Source of the DNA: Astropecten irregularis
Taxonomy: Eukaryota; Echinodermata; Asteroidea; Paxillosida; Astropectinidae
Length of the DNA: 64,000 nt
Assembly (NCBI GenBank): GCA_963971285.1
Contig: OZ020247.1
Coordinates: 8,452,614 to 8,516,613, forward strand
Direction: 5' to 3'
Both the position numbers and the translations under genes were made by a program. The first letter of the stretch is position 1; each line of letters opens with the position of its first letter. This document shows positions 1 through 12,300 of this stretch, piece after piece. The notes beneath the pieces were generated by a model. It was given only the letters and a program-made list of their open reading frames with translations. It did no database searches and had not been told where the DNA came from.

Positions 1-119
1 TGTTCGTTTGCAGTGCACAGTCTGTTTGTTGGCATGACCTACAACTAAGTCAATGTAAATTTAATCATCAAATACATGTAACCACAAGGCAAACTAAGTG
101 GATTTATCTTAAGTCATTG

Positions 120-270
120 AACAAAGAAAACTTGACTGGAGTGGGATTTGAACCTGCAACCTACTGAATACTGATAGCTCAGTTTAATAGTAGCTAGAGC
201 ACTGGTACGGTATTCCAGAGGTAGCAGGTTCAAATCACGCTCCAATCAATTTTTGTCATTCACTTTTCAA
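120..270. repeat. SINE-like tRNA-derived repeat, inverted pair
   Basis: A reverse B-box-like stretch (GGATTTGAACCTGCAACCT) and a forward copy with B box GGTTCAAATC and the tail 'TCACTTTTCAATAAATG' lie head to head within 150 bases. The forward part keeps the family core 'ACGGTATTCCAGAGGT'. Confidence 0.6.
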
Positions 271-319
271 TAAATGAATGAATGACTGACAAAATATCAC
301 ACAAGAAGAGACAACCAAC

Positions 320-3300
320 CTTTGGATCATCATTAAAGACCGGGCCGGCCTGCGGGCTGGAGGGCTTCACTTCCTGGACCAGCAAGAGCTCCTTGTCTCT
401 ACCCGAGGTGACATCACTGCCAGGCAAGACGTGAGCAATCACGTTGGTGTACATGCCCTCAGCTAGAAGGGAGAGAGTTGGATTCAATCATCCCGAAAAG
501 GAAGAAGAGAAAGAATTCGCATAAGGAAACCCATTCAATATGAAAGGAAAATTGAACGAAGGGTACACCATGGTAAAAGATGCCTCTGAAAGAATCGGAG
601 ATCTTTATATCTTGATGTTCTGATCAGGATGCTCTGGTCATCTTCAGTGGACCCTGACAGCAGCATGCCAGCCAGAACCTAGAGGGGAGACTCTCTGGTT
701 CTTTCAGCAACCACCTCTCTTTGTGTGTACCGTAAAATACTTATTTTGTACGTCTGTCACACAAAAGTCTTAAATATCCTTCAAGAGAGGAACACACTGA
801 CCTAATAATATACTTTTTACAGGTTTTAGGCTTCTGAAAGTGCCCCCATACCCTGTCATCATTTACTTTGCTTTTATTTGTTTTTTCTTGAACTTCCACA
901 TACTTGTTTATTCTCAAATTGTGATGTTTCTTTACAGAGTTGGAAATAAATGTGCAAATGAATTGAATTGATTTGATGTAAAAACTGTCCATCTTGGCCA
1001 GGTTAGGTAGGAGATAATTGTCTTGTTTTGCTGGTTTGTTCCAAGCTTAAAAACAATCTTGGCGGCATGCAAAATGAATACAGAGGGAACTTATTTTCCT
1101 AACAAAAAATGTGATAACATGTAATATAAAAAATTGGATAAAAAGGAAAAGAAGAAATCTCTGATTGCTTCATACATGTCATATGAGAAAATTTGACCAC
1201 AAGCAACAAGACTCAACTTTCAGGCATTGCAATATTAAAAAAAGCTACACATGATTGTATGTTTTTTAAGTGACGCCGATATTTTCCCCCTTGTCGAATA
1301 CGTACCTTGGACGGCTTTGGCTGACTGCACTTCCAGGAACAGGCCCATCTCTTGGTCGTAGTCCACGCATCGCACAATGTCCAGGCGCTGAGGCGGGGCC
1401 TGGTTCTCTGGGTCGGACTGCTTCTTGAAGTCCAGTCTGTCCAGCTGCCACAATCTCAACTCATCCTCCGTCATCTCTGACCACCAGAAAAAAAGAAAAA
1501 TGATTGCAAATTAAAAAAAAAGGTCTGACTCTTTTACTTTGGATGCTCTAGCTATATCTGAGTCTAGTACAATCTGAATCAATGGGAGATTTTTGGAGAG
1601 TCGGTCTTGAGTCAACAGCGCACGTGCAAACCGGGGGTGCGTTCCGCTTGCGCGAACATGTCTCAACGTTTGCGGCAACGTTTGCGTACAACCGGAACCG
1701 ATTGTGAGCGCGCGTGGAACACAACCGTAAAATGGCGGTGTCCAGTCGTAACCAAGATGGCGTCGAATGCCTGCAGCGTCCAAAATAATTGATGAAATTT
1801 CTGATAGTACTTGTACTGCAGCATATCATTAAGTACCAATTATCTATGGTGCAATTTGTGAAGTACTTGATAAATTTTCAATCTTAAAAACTGCAGTTTT
1901 TACTTTCGTCACAAAAAAAATTACATCGTCTGCTTACCGTTCTGCCATCTTGGAAATATCGACCATTTTTAAATGACACGCGAACATTCGCGAACATCTC
2001 AGAAATATGTTCACCGACTGTTGCTAACACCCGCCAACGTTAGCGGCGCACAAGTCGTTCCAACCGAAATTGTTTGCAAACGTTGGCAAACGGTGGCAAC
2101 GTTCGCGCAAGCGGAACGCACCCCATGCTTGTGCAATTGTGAGCATGCGCGCGCGTGCGTGCGCGTGCGCGTGCGCGTGCGCTGTTGACTCAAGACCGAC
2201 TCTCCAAAAAGTCTCCCATTGCCTAGAAGGGAATAAGATGGCAAAAAGAACAAGTCCAGTCTTTTATAGTTTTCCGCAACCCCAGATTCTGAGGTTTGTA
2301 TTCATGACAACCATGTTATGCAGTGTTTCCACTGAGACAATCCTCCTGAAGCAGATTACACCTACATTTTCACTCCCAGCTGGTGTAATCAGGGAGTTCA
2401 TGGTGTAATTACATCAGCACTGAAGCATGCTAGGAGTATGATAGCTTGTTAATTAGGTACACTAGTAAGAGGCTAATAACTAAGAACCTCATAATAGACT
2501 GGGCTCGGTAATTTCTCGTGAGAACAAGTGGAAAATTGTTAGCGAATCTTATCAAAGTGCTATCCCTAGTCATTGGGGCCAATACTGGCACTTCTTATTT
2601 ATAGCTGAAAGCTGTTTCTTTAAAGACATGGGCTAGTGGTGCTTGGGCAAGATGCTTTGTCACATTATTGCTCTTCTTCACCCAGAAGTAAATGGGTACC
2701 TGTGAGGGTAGAGATGGCTTTGTGTGCTTGATTAGCCTCTGTGCGCTTTACAGCATCCAGGGCTGTACACTCCCCAGGGAGTTGAGATGGTTTCAGGACT
2801 GTAAATGAGCTAGGAGTGCAGGACCTACTAGGAGATGACACTGGATGGGTTCTCCCAACACCCAAACTCTGTCGGCAGCTGCTCGCCAGCCATCGCAACT
2901 CCCCTGAATGTCTTCCTAGCTCACCTTGGGTTTCCTGCTGATCTTGTCTCAGCTTGTGCAGACGGCTACGTACAGTGTCCCCCCAAGATGCATTCTTCCT
3001 GTAATGCACCATCAACCGCCGCTCTGACTCCGACGGCACACTTGTATGGGAATCATAATAGGCAGTGTCATAGTCTGGTGCCGGAATAAACTCCTGCAGA
3101 TCGGATTTCGAGAGAAAAAAAAATTAAAAATGCAAAGACAAAATTAACATTATATATTAGTTTGTTTAGGAGTTAAGCAAATTGCCACTGGTAGGTTTTT
3201 TGTGGGGTTATATTATCTAACTTTATTTTTTGGGGGGGTGTAAATTTGCAAGACATCTTCAATGTCAATGAATGAAGCACCTGAAAGTAAGAATGCTGGC

Positions 3301-6300
3301 TTCACATGAAGGAGAGCTTGCTAACATCTTTAACAGTCAATATTTGTATAATTATTATACCTCAATTCAAACTTTGGGAGGCAGTAGTTTTTCCATAGCA
3401 TTCTTCACTATGATCCGCATCTTAGGAGGCAGTACATAGTTGGTCAATATAGTATATTTTACCTCCATCCAAATATTAAGAGGCAGTCCATTACACTCTT
3501 CACTGCTCATTATTTGAATATTATACCTCAATGGGTATCTTAGGAGGGTATAGTTTAACATTCTTCCGTGGTCAATAACAGTATATTATACCTTGATCCG
3601 AGCACTAGGAGGCAGTATAATTTCACTATAACATTCTGTGGTCAATATTCGAATATTGTACAGTTCAATCTGTATCTTTAGGAGGCAGTATAGTTTTACT
3701 ATAACATTAATCTGCAGTCAATATCTGAATATTACACCTCGATCTGAACCTTGGCTTGCAGTATAGTTTTACCATAGCATTCTGACCATTCTTCAGTGGT
3801 CATTATATAACACCTTAGTAGATCCTTGTCATTTGATTGGAGGATTGTATGTCACGTGATATGTAATAAATAGACCAATTCATGGCTTACGTCACAACCG
3901 TTGAAATTTGTACCATCCACCGTGCATTTTTGGTGCCATCCGATTTGTACCATTGCACGCCAGGGACTCTTATACGTGATTGGTCAAGCGGCGTTCCATT
4001 TATTTGTCACTGCGTGCACGCGTACGCGTTGGTACGGTGTGCAACGCGCGTTAATGTAATAAGAGCAATATAGTTTGCCAAGATTTTAAGCTTTTTTTGT
4101 CTCGCTAACTCTTAAAATGTTATCCTCCAATCAAAATCAAATGACAAAGATCTACTTAGATGTTATATAAAACAAATAATGAATGTTTCACATTCGTAGA
4201 ATGGAAAAAATAATTTCATTCGGTGACAGATGGACTGTTCCATTCCACTCGGCTTCGCCTCGTGAAATAGAACAGTCCATCTGTCACCTCATGAAATTAT
4301 TTTTACCATTCCACTCATAAACATTCATTACCGGTATTTGTATAATAGTTTGCATTCTATAACTCGCTTTGAAATGAAAGGGTTGTACTGGGTATATTTC
4401 TCACCTCTGATTTGGGTAGAAGGCGTACGAGCAATGAACAGGCAGGGATGATGGGGAGTTGACTCATTGCCTCTACGGACATTGCACTGGATGCGGGCAT
4501 GCCATGATGCATCCTCAGCTGGAATCCACCAATATTCAGCTGAGTGGACATAAACAAGTAAAAAATGTCGAAACTTACATCCAACCATATTTCATAACCA
4601 AATCAGGCATGTTAAAATGCCCTTATGACGTTCAACAGCACAACATGCAAAATCCTTTTGAGTGTTTTTTTTTTAAGCCTGATTTTAAAGGTAGTATCAT
4701 AGTTTGGTTTTTGTCAAAGAAATACAGATTCGTGGCCAATAATGTCAAGGAAGATACAGTAAAAGTAATCTATGAAAATTTCAGTCCAATTCGATGCCCA
4801 CTTTTTGAGAAAACAGCGAAAAATGGCCACAGTATTTCTTAAGTATTTTCTATTTTATTTTTGATCTTTTAAAAGATCAAAAAGATTTCCGGTCGTTGTT
4901 TTTACAAATTTCTGGATAAATACACCATTTCAGGCGGAAAAATTTTAACAGTATGTTTCTACCACCACCATCTTCATACCATGTAGTTATAGGTAAATCT
5001 GTGAACATTTCTGTTTTGGTCTCTTACCAAAGTATGATACTACCTTTAATGAATAATTCTATCACCCAAATGAAAATCATAAGAGTAATAATTTTATCAT
5101 TTTGTCACCTTTACTGCTTTTGGAATTGACAAAAACATGCAGGATTAATTTTTCAACAAATTGAAAAGTGAACAAAGAAAAATTGAGAGGAGCGAGATTC
5201 GAACCAGCAACCCCCAGAATACCGTACAGGAGCTTTACCAAATGAGCTATCCAGCTCTATGTTGGTGTTGCATGCCCCTAATAGTCAATTATCTTTGTTC
5301 ATATGGCAGTCAGAAGTCATGAAACCTCTCACATACTGCTATATCCCAAGGGCCATTTAAGATGCTTGCAGCATTAGCAATGCTGCAACCTGATAAACAG
5401 TACAGACGAAAACAGAATAGAAGCCAAATTTTCAGATTTAACAGTTCTTTCTTTGTGAAATTCCCCCTTATAACTTTGGAATTTTTTCATTGTTGAGGGA
5501 TACACGACATACACATTGTAGTGTCATAAACAAGTGTTTTCTTTTCAAGTTATGTCTTTTATTTCATTCCATTGGCTCTGAAGTGAAATGAAAAATTCAT
5601 TTTTTGCATCTTCCAATTTTTTTTTTTTTGGACATCAGTTTGCTCTCACCTTCTTTGATCCTTCATCTCCGACAAACAGCTGCAATGCCGTGGCACCAGC
5701 CACCACCACATCATTAGTGACCTTGTCCACTGTGTATATCCTCAGCACAGCCACATTGGCTTCCTCGGCAAAGGGCAAGGTGTACCGGTAGGTGCACGTT
5801 GGACAGCGAGCCGACGAGTCAAATTCTGCAGCTGCTAGAATATCAGGACGGTCATCATTAACAGGTAGGACGACACGGCCAGTTACCTTGACAACGACAA
5901 CAAAAAAGATAAACAGTCAAATGTTTCTAAATGGAAGAAGCAGCAGAACAGCACTATCTTTCTCAATGGCTAAATGACAAGAGGACAAGAACATGCAAGT
6001 AAAGATACATGTAAACATAAATGGATGAAAGGATCAGAACAAAGGGCAACAGAGTGACCAGGGAAACATTCTTTGAGAAAGATCCTGCTATGATCAAAAT
6101 GTCAGGCCCTCCTAACTTCTAGCATTTTATATAATTCAGTTCATTATTTTGGTTAAAAGAAGCTCTCCTGTGGACGAACAGAGCACACTGTTTGGAACGT
6201 CGAGATATTACCAACGGTTTTTCTCAGAACCACACACTCTCACAGAAGAGATAACATGGTGTCACCGCAAACCTACCTTCTTTACATGTACTTCTACCAT

Positions 6301-9300
6301 GCATAGCTTTTTCAAGAAAGACTAGAAACTCTGTCTGGTGATCAAAGAATGTGATCCAACAAAGACCCTGAAGTGATGGAGATCGATGGACGTAAAGATG
6401 TTTTCACTCGTAATGAGAATGGTGACGCTACAATGAATGATGCACAATCAAATTCTCACCTTGCATATGGTAGAGGTGTCCGGTAAGAACCTGACCCCGT
6501 CGATGTAGAGGTCACAGCCTTCCTCCGGAGCAGTAGCCTTGTGGTCATCCTCCTTCCGGCTGGGGTCCTGCTCAAGCCACAGTGTGTCCGGCTCAAAGAC
6601 CGTCAGACTCACCTCCGACCCCACCTGCAAAAGATCTAGAGAGGCCGGACAACAGGAACGAGATATTCAATGTAAGACTTTTCAATTTTCTTGGCCCAGC
6701 GGTGTATGATTTTCAGAAACAGAGAGCTGACATCTACAGCCAGTAATGTGTAGAATGTCCTCAATCTGCTTGAGCACTAGACCTCACGATTGCTTGTTGG
6801 CTCCCCCATTTCTACAAAGTACTTGCCTAGATGACACCATGATTATTATTCTGACCCGGGGTCGATTTCTTGAAGCCCTAAGATCGACTGTAACTTGAGT
6901 TACGAAGGATAACCCATATCGTATCCTACATAGGGCTGCAATGCATCATAAGTCCTACAAATGATAGTAAGTTATGATGAGTTTGGGGAAATCAACCCTT
7001 GGTTCTACAAAATGAGTATAAAGGCCAACTTATATGACATTTTCCATTTATTTCATATTATTAAAAAAAACCTGACAACTTCTGCTGTTTGGGCAATGAT
7101 GAGGCAATTTTCGGACAATCTCCAAGAAGAAATAAATTCACGTTTAAATTTTCAAATATTTTCAAGTTTTTTGGCAGACAAACTGCCCGAAGAATGACCC
7201 TTTGTGATTTAGAAATGTCCCATTTGCCTGTTGTATAGTCTGTAAGGTGCTTTCAAGTTGCCTCTAAAAATTAAGACAGGGCCACTTTGCTTTGAAATAT
7301 CAGGTATTTCCGCACAGTACAACAATGTCTTTAGGGTAAAAATAAATAAAGAAATTCTGAAAGATTTTCACTTTGTAACAACTTTTGCATCGGCATAGAA
7401 CTCAAAATCAGCTTTGGCCATTTGCATCTCAATTTACCAGGTTGTGTCAATGGGTCTTAATAGGCAACAGGCCTCATCACAAATTGAAAAAATGGTCTCT
7501 TACCTTTTCCTGAAAACTGCTTCATTGCTCCATCTGCTTGAATGTCCTCAGGCACCTCCCCAAAGTACAATGGTACGGTCTGCTCGGCTTCCCTAGCAGC
7601 CCAGGTTGTCATGGGGACGGCCGTTCCATTCTGCCTCTGCGGGGAGGCAGTTCCCTCCTTTTGGTAAACTGGAATCAGGGCCCATCCCAGAGATTCTTTG
7701 GACAACTGATCCTGGTCATGATCTGAGGAGACAAGCAGAACATCCCTGATGTACCATTCCTGGACAAGTTTGCAGCATTGCTAATGATGCATCCTTCAAG
7801 TGGGATATAGAGGTATGTGCGTGGTTTCATGGCTTCTGACTGGCATACGAACAAAGGTAATTAACAATTTGGGACACCGCCAACATAGGGCTGGATTGCC
7901 CCGTCGGTAGAGCATGGGAAGGGTATTCTGGAGGCCACAGGTTCGAATCCCAACTCAGTCAATTTTCTTTGTTCACCTTAATTTGGATCCCTAAAATGAA
8001 TCCAGTCAGTTTGCCTTGTGGTCAATTTGATAAGAAAAAGCAAGACACAAAGAAACGAATGAATGTATTAATAATAATAATAATAATTTGGGAGGCTAAT
8101 CCTCCTGGTGTGCTGAATTGCGAAGGATGTGGCTACAACGTGATTAAGTTGCCGACAATCATGGGTGCCCTTGGCCACATCAACCAATATAACATCACGG
8201 AGCACAGCCTGAGATCATGTTTGATTTTTGTGGAGGGAGGAAAACCGGAGAACCCGGGAAAAAAAACCCTTGTAGCATAGGCGAGAACCAACGCACAACT
8301 CTAATAACATATGACCTAAGCTTGAATCGAACCCGGGCCACATTGGCAAGATAAGTTATCAGAAATCTGCAAGAAGTCTTTAAACTGTCATGTTTAAGAT
8401 GAAAAAAAGAACACGAAAGACCATCTGAAATGGATGCCATACCTGATTCGTCATCTGAAGTTTTGTAGCGGAACCTCAGCGCAACTAATGGTTCAAGTTC
8501 CCGATCATATTTCATCAAGTCCAATTCCTTCAAGGAAAAGTTGATCGGTTCCTGAAGAGGAATTAATCCACAAGAATTTTGATTTTGTTTTTCAAAAATT
8601 TCCATCTCGGATGGGTTGAATTATTATCAAAGCTCCTGTACGGGAATGTTTGGTATATTGCCTGTCGGCAGAACTTGCATTTTCCCTATAAGCTGATACT
8701 TGGGTTAACAGCTTGCAGATGCTAACTCTTATTTGTTAATAGGGGGAGAGACTTTACTACTGGTCCAGCCTAGCTTTTGAAAAGACTGGCCAGGCCTGGT
8801 CCTTCAGACCTGAAATCCTCCTTTTGCTAATCCTGAACTTCAGTACAACAAAGATACTTAGAATCAATAAAGCCAGGCCTCTGGATGGCCTAGCCAGGCC
8901 CCTGGATGGCCTAGCCAGGCCCCTGGATGGCCTAGCCAGGCCCCTGGATGGCCTAGCCAGGCCCCTGGATGGCCTAGCCAGGCCCCTGGATGGCCTAGCC
9001 AGGCCCCTGGATGGCTTAGCCAGGGCTCTGGATGGCCTAGCCAGACTGAAGTCCTGCCAGCATCCCGCCACAAGTCTGACATGGGGTTATAATGCAGCTT
9101 AAATGGCTACACAATGCCCTGGCCAAGACCATAGTATCATTCTTTCAACCATCTATCAGTATCTTTCTATAACGTATCCAATTTTGAATGTGATGACAGT
9201 TTTGTTCACATACCTCGTTCACAGTTTGGATGATTTTTCCCGGCGAGTCCTTATCATACCGGCCGTCGGACTTCTTGACAAATATGGAGAGGGTCACATG

Positions 9301-12300
9301 ATCTTTGATCTGATTCACTTGGACTGTCTTCTTGCCCACCGTCAGGAACAAAGTGACGACGACTCGATCCATCTGGAGACCTGGCAGCTAAATGAGAAGA
9401 AAAGCATGGGATAAATTAATCATAAATAATTGAAAAGTAAACAAAGAAAAATTGTCTGCAACTGGAATCGTACCAGTGACCTCTAGAACACCGTACTGGT
9501 ACTCTTACCAACTGAGCCATCCATCCCTATGTTGGTGGTGGGTATAGGACAGTGGCGCACCCAGGGGGGGGGGGGGGCTCCGGGGGCTTGAGCCCCCCCC
9601 CCCCCAAGAGGGTCCCTGAAAAAAACCCCCCAAAAAACGAAAAAAGAACGAAAAAAAAACAAACAAAAAAAGGGGGGGAGAGGGAAAGGGAGAGGAGGAA
9701 TGGGGGAGTCACAAAATGTTTTGTGGGAGAAAAATTTTCTTTGAGCCTCCCCAAAGACAAAATCCTGGGTGCGCCAGTGGGATAGGACTGGGTAGCTCAG
9801 TTGGTAAGAGTGCCGGTACAGTGTTCTGGAGGTCGCTGGTTCAAATCCAGCTCCAGTCAATTTTTCTTCGTTCACTTTTCAATGACTTAAAATTCAGTCA
9901 GTTTCCCTTGTGGTTATCTGTTGAATAATGATAACAAATTGTTTTTGTACAACGCAAATTCTGCCAAATGTTGATGCTCAATGTACATGGTTTTTAGCAC
10001 AATAAAAATATACAAACTTTAACATAAAATCGATGTTTAGTAATCAAAAGCTGAATTTAAGATAAGACTGGAGGAGTGTTGTTGGAGTGTTCTTGGCTTG
10101 TTTGCTTTGTTTGTTTGTTTGTCTGTTTTTTGTCAAATCTCAGTGAGGTTCCAGATGAGCTTGGTTTGTTGGTCAGTTTTTTTTTATATGTTGGAGAATT
10201 CTTTATTGGTTTGCTTTGTTTGTTTGTTTGTTTGTCTGTTTTTGTCGCATCTTACCTGAGATTCGGTGAGGTTCCATATGAGCTTCGTTTGTTGGTCAGT
10301 TTTTTTATATGTTGGAGACTTCTTTATTGCTTTGCTTTGTTTGTTTATTCGTCTGTTTTTGTCGCATCTTACCTGAGACTCGGTGAGGTTCCATATGAGC
10401 TTCGTTTGTTGGTCAGTTTTTTTTATATGTTGGAGACTTCTTTATTGCTTTGTTTGTTTGTTTGTTTGTCTGTTTTTGTCGCATCTTACCTGAGATTCGG
10501 TGAGGTTCCATATGAGCTTCGTTTGTTGGTCAGTTTTTTTATATGTTGGAGACTTCTTTATTGCTTTGCTTTGTTTGTTTATTCGTCTGTTTTTGTCGCA
10601 TCTTACCTGAGACTCGGTGAGGTTCCATATGAGCTTCGTTTGTTGGTCAGTTTTTTTATATGTTGGAGACTTCTTTATTGCTTTGCTTTGTTTGTTTATT
10701 CGTCTGTTTTTGTCGCATCTTACCTGAGTCTCGCTGAGGTTCCATATGAGCTTCGTTTGTTGGTCAGTTTTTTTATATGTTGGAGACTTCTTTATTGCTT
10801 TGCTTTGTTTGTTTATTCGTCTGTTTTTGTCGCATCTTACCTGAGACTCGGTGAGGTTCCATATGAGCTTCGTTTGTTGGTCAGTTTTTTTATATGTTGG
10901 AGACTTCTTTATTGCTTTGCTTTGTTTGTTTATTCGTCTGTTTTTGTCGCATCCTACCTGAGACTCGGTGAGGTTCCATATGAGCTTGAGTTTGATGTTC
11001 CTCAGGCCGGCTCTCCTGAGTTTCACCATCTCTGGCTGGGAATCGATGGGGCCAGCAGGGGGCATCCCTGGGGCAGATCCTGGAGCAGTTGCAGGGGTAC
11101 TTCCTGGAGCAGTCGCAGGGGCAGTTCCTGGAGGAGTTGCTGGGATAGGAATGGGGGTAGGTGCCGCCGCCTTGGCCACAGGACTTTTTGCACCAGGACT
11201 GGTAGAAGTTGCGAGAAAAGAGGAAGAAACCTTTTACTCCAGTAGCCCAAGCACTGGACAGCAGGCCGGGAAGGCTTAACATATACAGCTATATAAACAT
11301 GTCCATGGTGATGCTGTACATTTCCAGTAACATTTTGAGTTCATTTGGACTTTTCTAGCCTCATCAACCCAAAATATCACTTCTACTTCAACTATTACAC
11401 CAATGAAACAAAATTCTGACAGCCTTCCGTCATACTTCTTGATTAACTTTAAAAGTGAAAAAAAAAACAAAAAACGGGAGCAAGGAAGGTTTGAAAGTTT
11501 CTGAAGTGAATCTTGAATGGTATTCTGTATGCCAGTTGTCCTACAACCAAACACCAATATCACTACTCAGCTGTCCATAACCTTTATCACATACATATAC
11601 TTACTCCATGCTTCTTTCTTGTCCAAGTCGAGCCTGCCGATAAGCCTTCACTAGGTCAAGGGTCAGCGTTTTCGAAGGCTCACTCAGGAACACCTTTAGT
11701 ACAATGAAAAAGAAACTTTTCAATTTGATAGCCAAATGTGAATAAGGTAATTTGTAACAATGGGAGACTTTTGGAGAATCGGTCTCGAGTCAACAGCGCA
11801 CGCGCAAACCATGCTTGCAAATTGATCGCCAAAGAAAAAAACTTCTGTCCAGTAAAGTTGGCAGTAGAAGAATTGGGAATAGAATGAAAAATTAGGAAAT
11901 ATGTGCACAAGTTTGTGAAAAAATACAAAAATAACAAATATGTCTCCCTTAGTTCTTATTTTTATTTCAATAATCAAATAATCATAAGAGAAACTGATTG
12001 AATACAAAGTCATTGGAAAGTAAATTGACTCGAATGTGATTCAAACCAGTGACCACCAGAACACCGTATTGGTGCTCTTACCAACTGAGCTACCCAGCCC
12101 TATGTCGGTGGTGTCCCTAATAGTCGATTATCTTTGTTTGTTTGGCAGTCAGAAGTCATGAATTAAAAAATGCACAATATACCCCTATAGCCCAAGGATC
12201 ATTTTATCTTCATTTTAGTTACCTGTCTCATCTGGTGGTAGTTTGTGGCCCGCATGAAGGGCGCCCTCAGTTGGAGGAGAAGGGCCAGGCAGGTGTGTTC

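Follow-up and report, generated by a model that had tools for sequence, protein, structure and literature searches.

We analysed a stretch of 64,000 nucleotides of the starfish Astropecten irregularis genome (C10:8452614-8516613), referred to here as the window. A gene on the minus strand extends from about 17.8 kb to the low end of the window, and we modelled 19 exons of it, 89-280 nt in length. The model is partial; the frame is broken between exons 8551-8443 and 7759-7504, so the model lacks either a splice site or a short exon there. The feature of interest lies at the 3' end of exon 11198-10958, which is phase-compatible with the preceding exon (11693-11605) and with the following one (9387-9214), the phases being consistent with a single intron, 10957-9388. 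The initial annotation described TBC-like and C2-like parts of the protein. The N-terminal part matched the Pfam family RabGAP-TBC with an E value of 2.1e-5, although the score of 24.7 bits is just below the curated cut-off of 25.2; the C2-like part was not recovered, as the 118-aa spliced stretch after the array matched no Pfam family at E values up to 1. Searches of the PDB with parts of the gene returned nothing useful, and a search of the genome for a paralogue or retrocopy of the spliced region gave only three matches, all of them exons of the gene itself. Exon 11198-10958 also contains a short coding minisatellite (11059-11144, minus strand; 12/24-bp units, TAPATAPGS), and the intron beyond exon 9387-9214 holds a 21-bp x 8.3 minisatellite at 8871-9044, the third array in about 2.3 kb. 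Elsewhere in the window, at 28522-60245, a tandem cluster of long open frames on both strands looks cytochrome P450-like by eye.

On the minus strand, positions 10061-10987 hold eight tandem copies of a unit in which the final 30 nt of the exon are followed by the adjoining 87 nt of the intron; copies 1-6 measure 117 bp and copy 7 measures 123 bp, and copy 8 is diverged (Table 1). Each unit, the diverged one included, opens with the exon end KLIWNLTE(SQ), and seven of the eight carry a donor, once as CAG/GTAGGA and six times as CAG/GTAAGA, which bears out the initial annotation of a tandem amplification of an exon end together with its 5' splice site. TRF scored the array at 1530, compared to 320 for the next highest among the 16 rows in the window, and a search of the whole genome (475.7 Mb; the search skips simple repeats) with the 117-bp unit returned eight matches, all in the array. 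As a repeat, the array exceeds chance. The copies are not all alike in sequence and do not form an exact assembly duplicate. The interior copies are homogenised (2, 4 and 6 are identical, with copy 1 at one base and copy 3 at two bases from them), and a second sequence type is found in copies 5 and 7. The outermost copy, copy 8, shows 14 base differences and 29 gap positions and reads KLIWNLTEI followed by a stop codon; copy 1, on the exon side, is not diverged. The alternation of types in copies 4-7 (pairs 4-5 and 6-7) suggests that units were copied jointly in pairs. An origin of the unit from a longer exon, considered because the exon segment 11011-10988 resembles the unit end, was rejected after 1305 of 2000 shuffles scored equally well.

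Table 1. Features of the array and its flanking exons (window coordinates) and similar arrays elsewhere in the genome (contig coordinates).
Feature	Position	Strand	Description
Exon body to donor 1	10958-11198	-	241 nt; phase 0 end, ...RNIKLKLIWNLTESQ; open frame, acceptor ACTTCTACCAG
Copy 1	10871-10987	-	117 bp; donor GTAGGA after 10958
Copy 2	10754-10870	-	117 bp; donor GTAAGA after 10841
Copy 3	10637-10753	-	117 bp; NLSETQ variant; donor GTAAGA after 10724
Copy 4	10520-10636	-	117 bp; sequence as copy 2; donor GTAAGA after 10607
Copy 5	10403-10519	-	117 bp; second type; donor GTAAGA after 10490; in-frame stop 10444-10442 in intronic part
Copy 6	10286-10402	-	117 bp; sequence as copy 2; donor GTAAGA after 10373, past the stop
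Copy 7	10163-10285	-	123 bp; second type; donor GTAAGA after 10256, past the stop
Copy 8	10061-10162	-	diverged, without donor; similarity to unit declines toward low coordinates
Next exon (LPGLQMDRVVV...)	9214-9387	-	phase 0; supported by acceptor CTCATTTAG and phase
L077	C9:28698700-28700200	+	62-bp unit x 7; end of coiled-coil-looking exon; stop 15 nt past donor 1
L080	C19:19596800-19597600	+	74-bp unit, nearly all exon, with GTAAGA; exon and 16 further genome matches
L081	C10:27388150-27388850	-	44-bp unit; CAG/GTAAG; 4 donors in the part read; stop 6 nt past donor 1
L082	C1:21385900-21386700	+	94-bp unit; CAG/GTAAG, 3 donors; stop 12 nt past donor 1
L083	C17:2355000-2356000	+	45-bp unit; seven GTAAG donors, all open and in frame (GPESEDLIMTDEAGK)
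L079			unit of about 121 bp; probable exon-end array; 108-nt open stretch ahead of first donor
L078 (with L084)	C8:37962200-37963500	-	106-bp unit, about 11 copies; encodes MDSFVLDETVQDKFKEAAKLHRQDPGKSKE-like peptides with GGTAAGAG

In amphioxus, exon-intron boundaries of Adh3 and of the globin genes BflGb6 and BflGb9 are duplicated in tandem in the manner of minisatellites, and such arrays have been named mirages; the study includes RT-PCR and haplotypes and, in the excerpt considered here, reports that regular splicing seems to be left undisturbed (PMC3087553). Like the amphioxus mirages as described in that excerpt, the window array has minisatellite-sized tandem units laid across an exon-intron boundary, AG/GT signals in many units, and a homogenised interior with a diverged edge; it shares with BflGb9 the edge concerned, the 3' end of an exon. 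Unlike them, it belongs to an echinoderm and not to a cephalochordate, has seven near-consensus donors, five of them open in frame, and is described here from genome sequence. By its anatomy, with exon and intron in each unit and a signal in seven of the eight, the array is most likely a mirage-type minisatellite, and by analogy with amphioxus (PMC3087553) it is plausible that its copy number varies among individuals. We found no report of mirages in echinoderms in a search that covered part of the literature. Tandem duplication of AGGT-bearing segments is also the basis of the Rogers model of intron gain, exemplified by ATP2A1 and a potato RdRp gene in the part of PMC4974935 considered here. 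The window array shares with such gains the multiplication of AG/GT by tandem duplication; however, it extends an existing intron at its 5' end, with no new intron or acceptor evident. The presence of serial comparable donors for one acceptor recalls exon 1 of the oestrogen receptor alpha gene, as excerpted from PMC6002489, except that the window array has seven sites in place of two, all from one repeat, and that donor use here is predicted only.

The frame of the exon body is open through donors 1-5, and the first stop lies 513 nt past donor 1, in copy 5. This confirms the earlier claim of five in-frame donors spaced 39 codons apart; the products of donors 6 and 7, which the stop precedes, would carry a premature stop. 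We compared this openness with chance. When the 87 nt of intron were shuffled by dinucleotide, 19% of the shuffled sequences had the needed frame open, the unit lacks a stop in two of six frames, and one period in three is expected to be a multiple of 3. The openness is therefore weak evidence of coding use, and the case for the array as a coding design is weak. Any donor choice yields the ten residues KLIWNLTE(S/T)Q beside the LPGLQ of the next exon, since each unit ends in the exon's own last ten codons. Extra blocks would thus go in upstream and leave the junction unaltered, a feature absent from the initial annotation; a constant junction of this type is a property of any mirage at a 3' exon end with a unit divisible by three. 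The donor of copy 1 had been called the weaker one. The gap in U1 duplex energy proved to be small (-10.7 kcal/mol, compared to -11.0 for the other array donors), and donor 1 ranks second among the 19 donors modelled in the gene. It gives an exon within the length range of the modelled exons, while donors 2-5 would give exons of 358-709 nt and donors 6 and 7 exons of 826 and 943 nt.

We looked for similar arrays elsewhere in the genome as three occurrences of CAGGTAAG at even spacing, and read seven coding-looking candidates picked by eye, including four of the ten separate places of the search at 62-92 bp. Five of the seven (L077, L080, L081, L082 and L083) are likely to lie at exon ends. The L083 array ends a fibronectin type III exon (Pfam E value 8.1e-12). 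L077 has an open frame that looks coiled-coil, with weak hits. No family or PDB match was found for L080, L081 and L082 where searched, and their coding status rests on an open frame and an acceptor; the L080 protein, which we take to resemble a retinol-saturase-like enzyme, had no match in Pfam, NCBIfam or PDB. The assignment is least certain for L080 and L081, given that about 10% of random stretches of 156-159 nt and 4-5% of those of 225-240 nt are open in one frame. An exon body was looked for near L078, and none was found. The early stops past donor 1 in L077, L081 and L082 make the distal donors there unusable, so these genes, if they work, must use the first donor. In L080 each unit step shifts the frame. 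Among the window array and the five likely ones, two of six units are divisible by 3 (45 and 117 bp), which is the share expected without selection on the frame. The outermost donor is broken in the window array (copy 8) and in L079 (GTCACT), and is intact in L077, L082 and L083. The initial annotation had suggested that the array might form a protein ruler; with a frame no better than chance, at least five like arrays in the genome and out-of-frame relatives among them, such a role is left without specific support.

We asked whether exon ends are preferred targets of such amplification by counting evenly spaced triples of donor words against control words across the genome. AGGTRAG triples showed no excess, with 1216 compared to 2679 for the reversed word, 1167 for a permuted word and 1387 for the permuted word reversed. 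Neither did CAGGTAAG triples at 92-122 bp (173, compared to 172 reversed) or CAGGTGAG triples (110, compared to 234 reversed); most of the latter, among the matches listed, look by eye like coding repeats of zinc-finger type. At 62-92 bp, there were 67 CAGGTAAG triples compared to 37 reversed, in about 10 and 7 separate places, respectively. Singly, CAGGTAAG occurred 13189 times and its reverse 12440 times. Save for the 62-92 bp count, donor-bearing arrays as a class showed no excess over control words, and a preference for exon ends is therefore not supported. At C1:1614421-1643604, CAGGTGAG is dense at an 84-bp spacing with a zinc-finger-linker look, and this region swamps searches with that word. 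The mitochondrial contig C168 carries a COX1 of 517 aa under genetic code 9, in which AAA encodes asparagine (STNHKDIG) and not the lysine of code 5 (STKHKDM), a mark of echinoderms; its putative ND2, ND1 and ND6 genes run opposite to COX1, an order that looks starfish-like. Separately, a partial COX1 with seven TGA codons in a large contig (L011, C25:9951047-9952018) probably represents mitochondrial DNA copied into the nucleus, and contig C131 has a COX1 without such TGA codons and is perhaps bacterial.

Taking these results together, we consider it probable that most splicing takes place at donor 1 and that copies 2-8 are a tolerated intronic minisatellite. A tandem amplification in a putative TBC-domain gene would by chance have taken in the end of an exon together with the start of the intron that follows it. 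The main splice would join donor 1 to 9387, copies 2-8 leaving with the intron, and the distal donors would see little or no use. Unequal exchange or slippage would have enlarged the array, as suggested by the paired arrangement of copies 4-7, and little selection would act on it. This reading draws on a donor 1 that is intact, strong and placed at a usual exon length, on the five like arrays, three of which have early stops past their first donor, on the chance share of units divisible by 3, and on the broken outermost donors of copy 8 and L079. It also agrees with the seemingly undisturbed regular splicing of the amphioxus mirages in the excerpt of PMC3087553. Against it, PMC6002489, in the part considered here, describes a preference for the intron-proximal site in competition between two comparable donors, which is the opposite direction. 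Donor 1 alone departs from GTAAGA, and this could shift splicing to the distal donors; the outermost donors of L077, L082 and L083 are intact. The intronic parts of copies 1-4 are open and that of copy 5 is not, a pattern that selection on read-through could also cause.

A possible, if unlikely, alternative is that several of donors 1-5 are used, adding 0-4 extra lysine-rich blocks of 39 residues that would lengthen the stretch before exon 9387 while the junction stays constant. The five open in-frame donors of similar strength argue for such a splice ladder, and L083, with its seven open donors 45 bp apart, would be a second in-frame case. However, openness and divisibility are near chance, exons of up to 709 nt would be required, and copies 2-6 are too similar for selection to show. 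We regard as unlikely the further proposal that the ladder renews itself, with unequal exchange resizing the linker in steps of 39 residues, so that length would vary within an animal by splicing and between animals by copy number.

It is quite improbable that the array acts as a copy-number-dependent attenuator, in which the donors at 10373 and 10256 compete well, their stop-bearing products are degraded and more copies give less protein. The two donors are equal in strength to donors 2-5, the stop in copy 5 is real, and an intron-proximal preference (PMC6002489, in the part considered here) would act in their favour; a strict rule of this kind would place splicing at donor 7, followed by the stop. 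The very long exons that the two donors need, above all the 943-nt exon, and the other arrays counter this, and the cost would also fall on L077, L081 and L082, whose arrays nonetheless persist. Very improbable is intronic polyadenylation, by which read-through would end at the copy-5 stop or at an AATAAA within the array and give a short protein with a basic tail; the array has 12 sense-strand AATAAA compared to 2.5 expected from shuffles, but the excess is chiefly one two-signal unit multiplied, and A-rich DNA forms such hexamers readily. That the assembly falsely multiplied the copies is highly improbable: the identity of copies 2, 4 and 6 would fit it, but private or shared differences in copies 1, 3, 5, 7 and 8 and the presence of like arrays elsewhere in the genome argue against it, though the exact copy number may be wrong.

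The array extends mirages, described in amphioxus (PMC3087553, in the excerpt considered here), to an echinoderm. Were the self-renewing ladder true, exon-end arrays would repeatedly give rise to proteins of varying length in this genome, and perhaps across starfish as a group, and the ladder would be limited to units divisible by 3, namely those of the window gene and of the fibronectin-type gene L083. The near-identical 5' splice sites, set in a row in one natural transcript, offer a test of how the spliceosome chooses by position at equal strength. An intron-proximal preference as described in the part of PMC6002489 considered here predicts a premature stop in the window gene and in three (L077, L081 and L082) of the five further arrays. 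Unless this animal favours the exon-proximal site, the window gene and these three genes pay a price.
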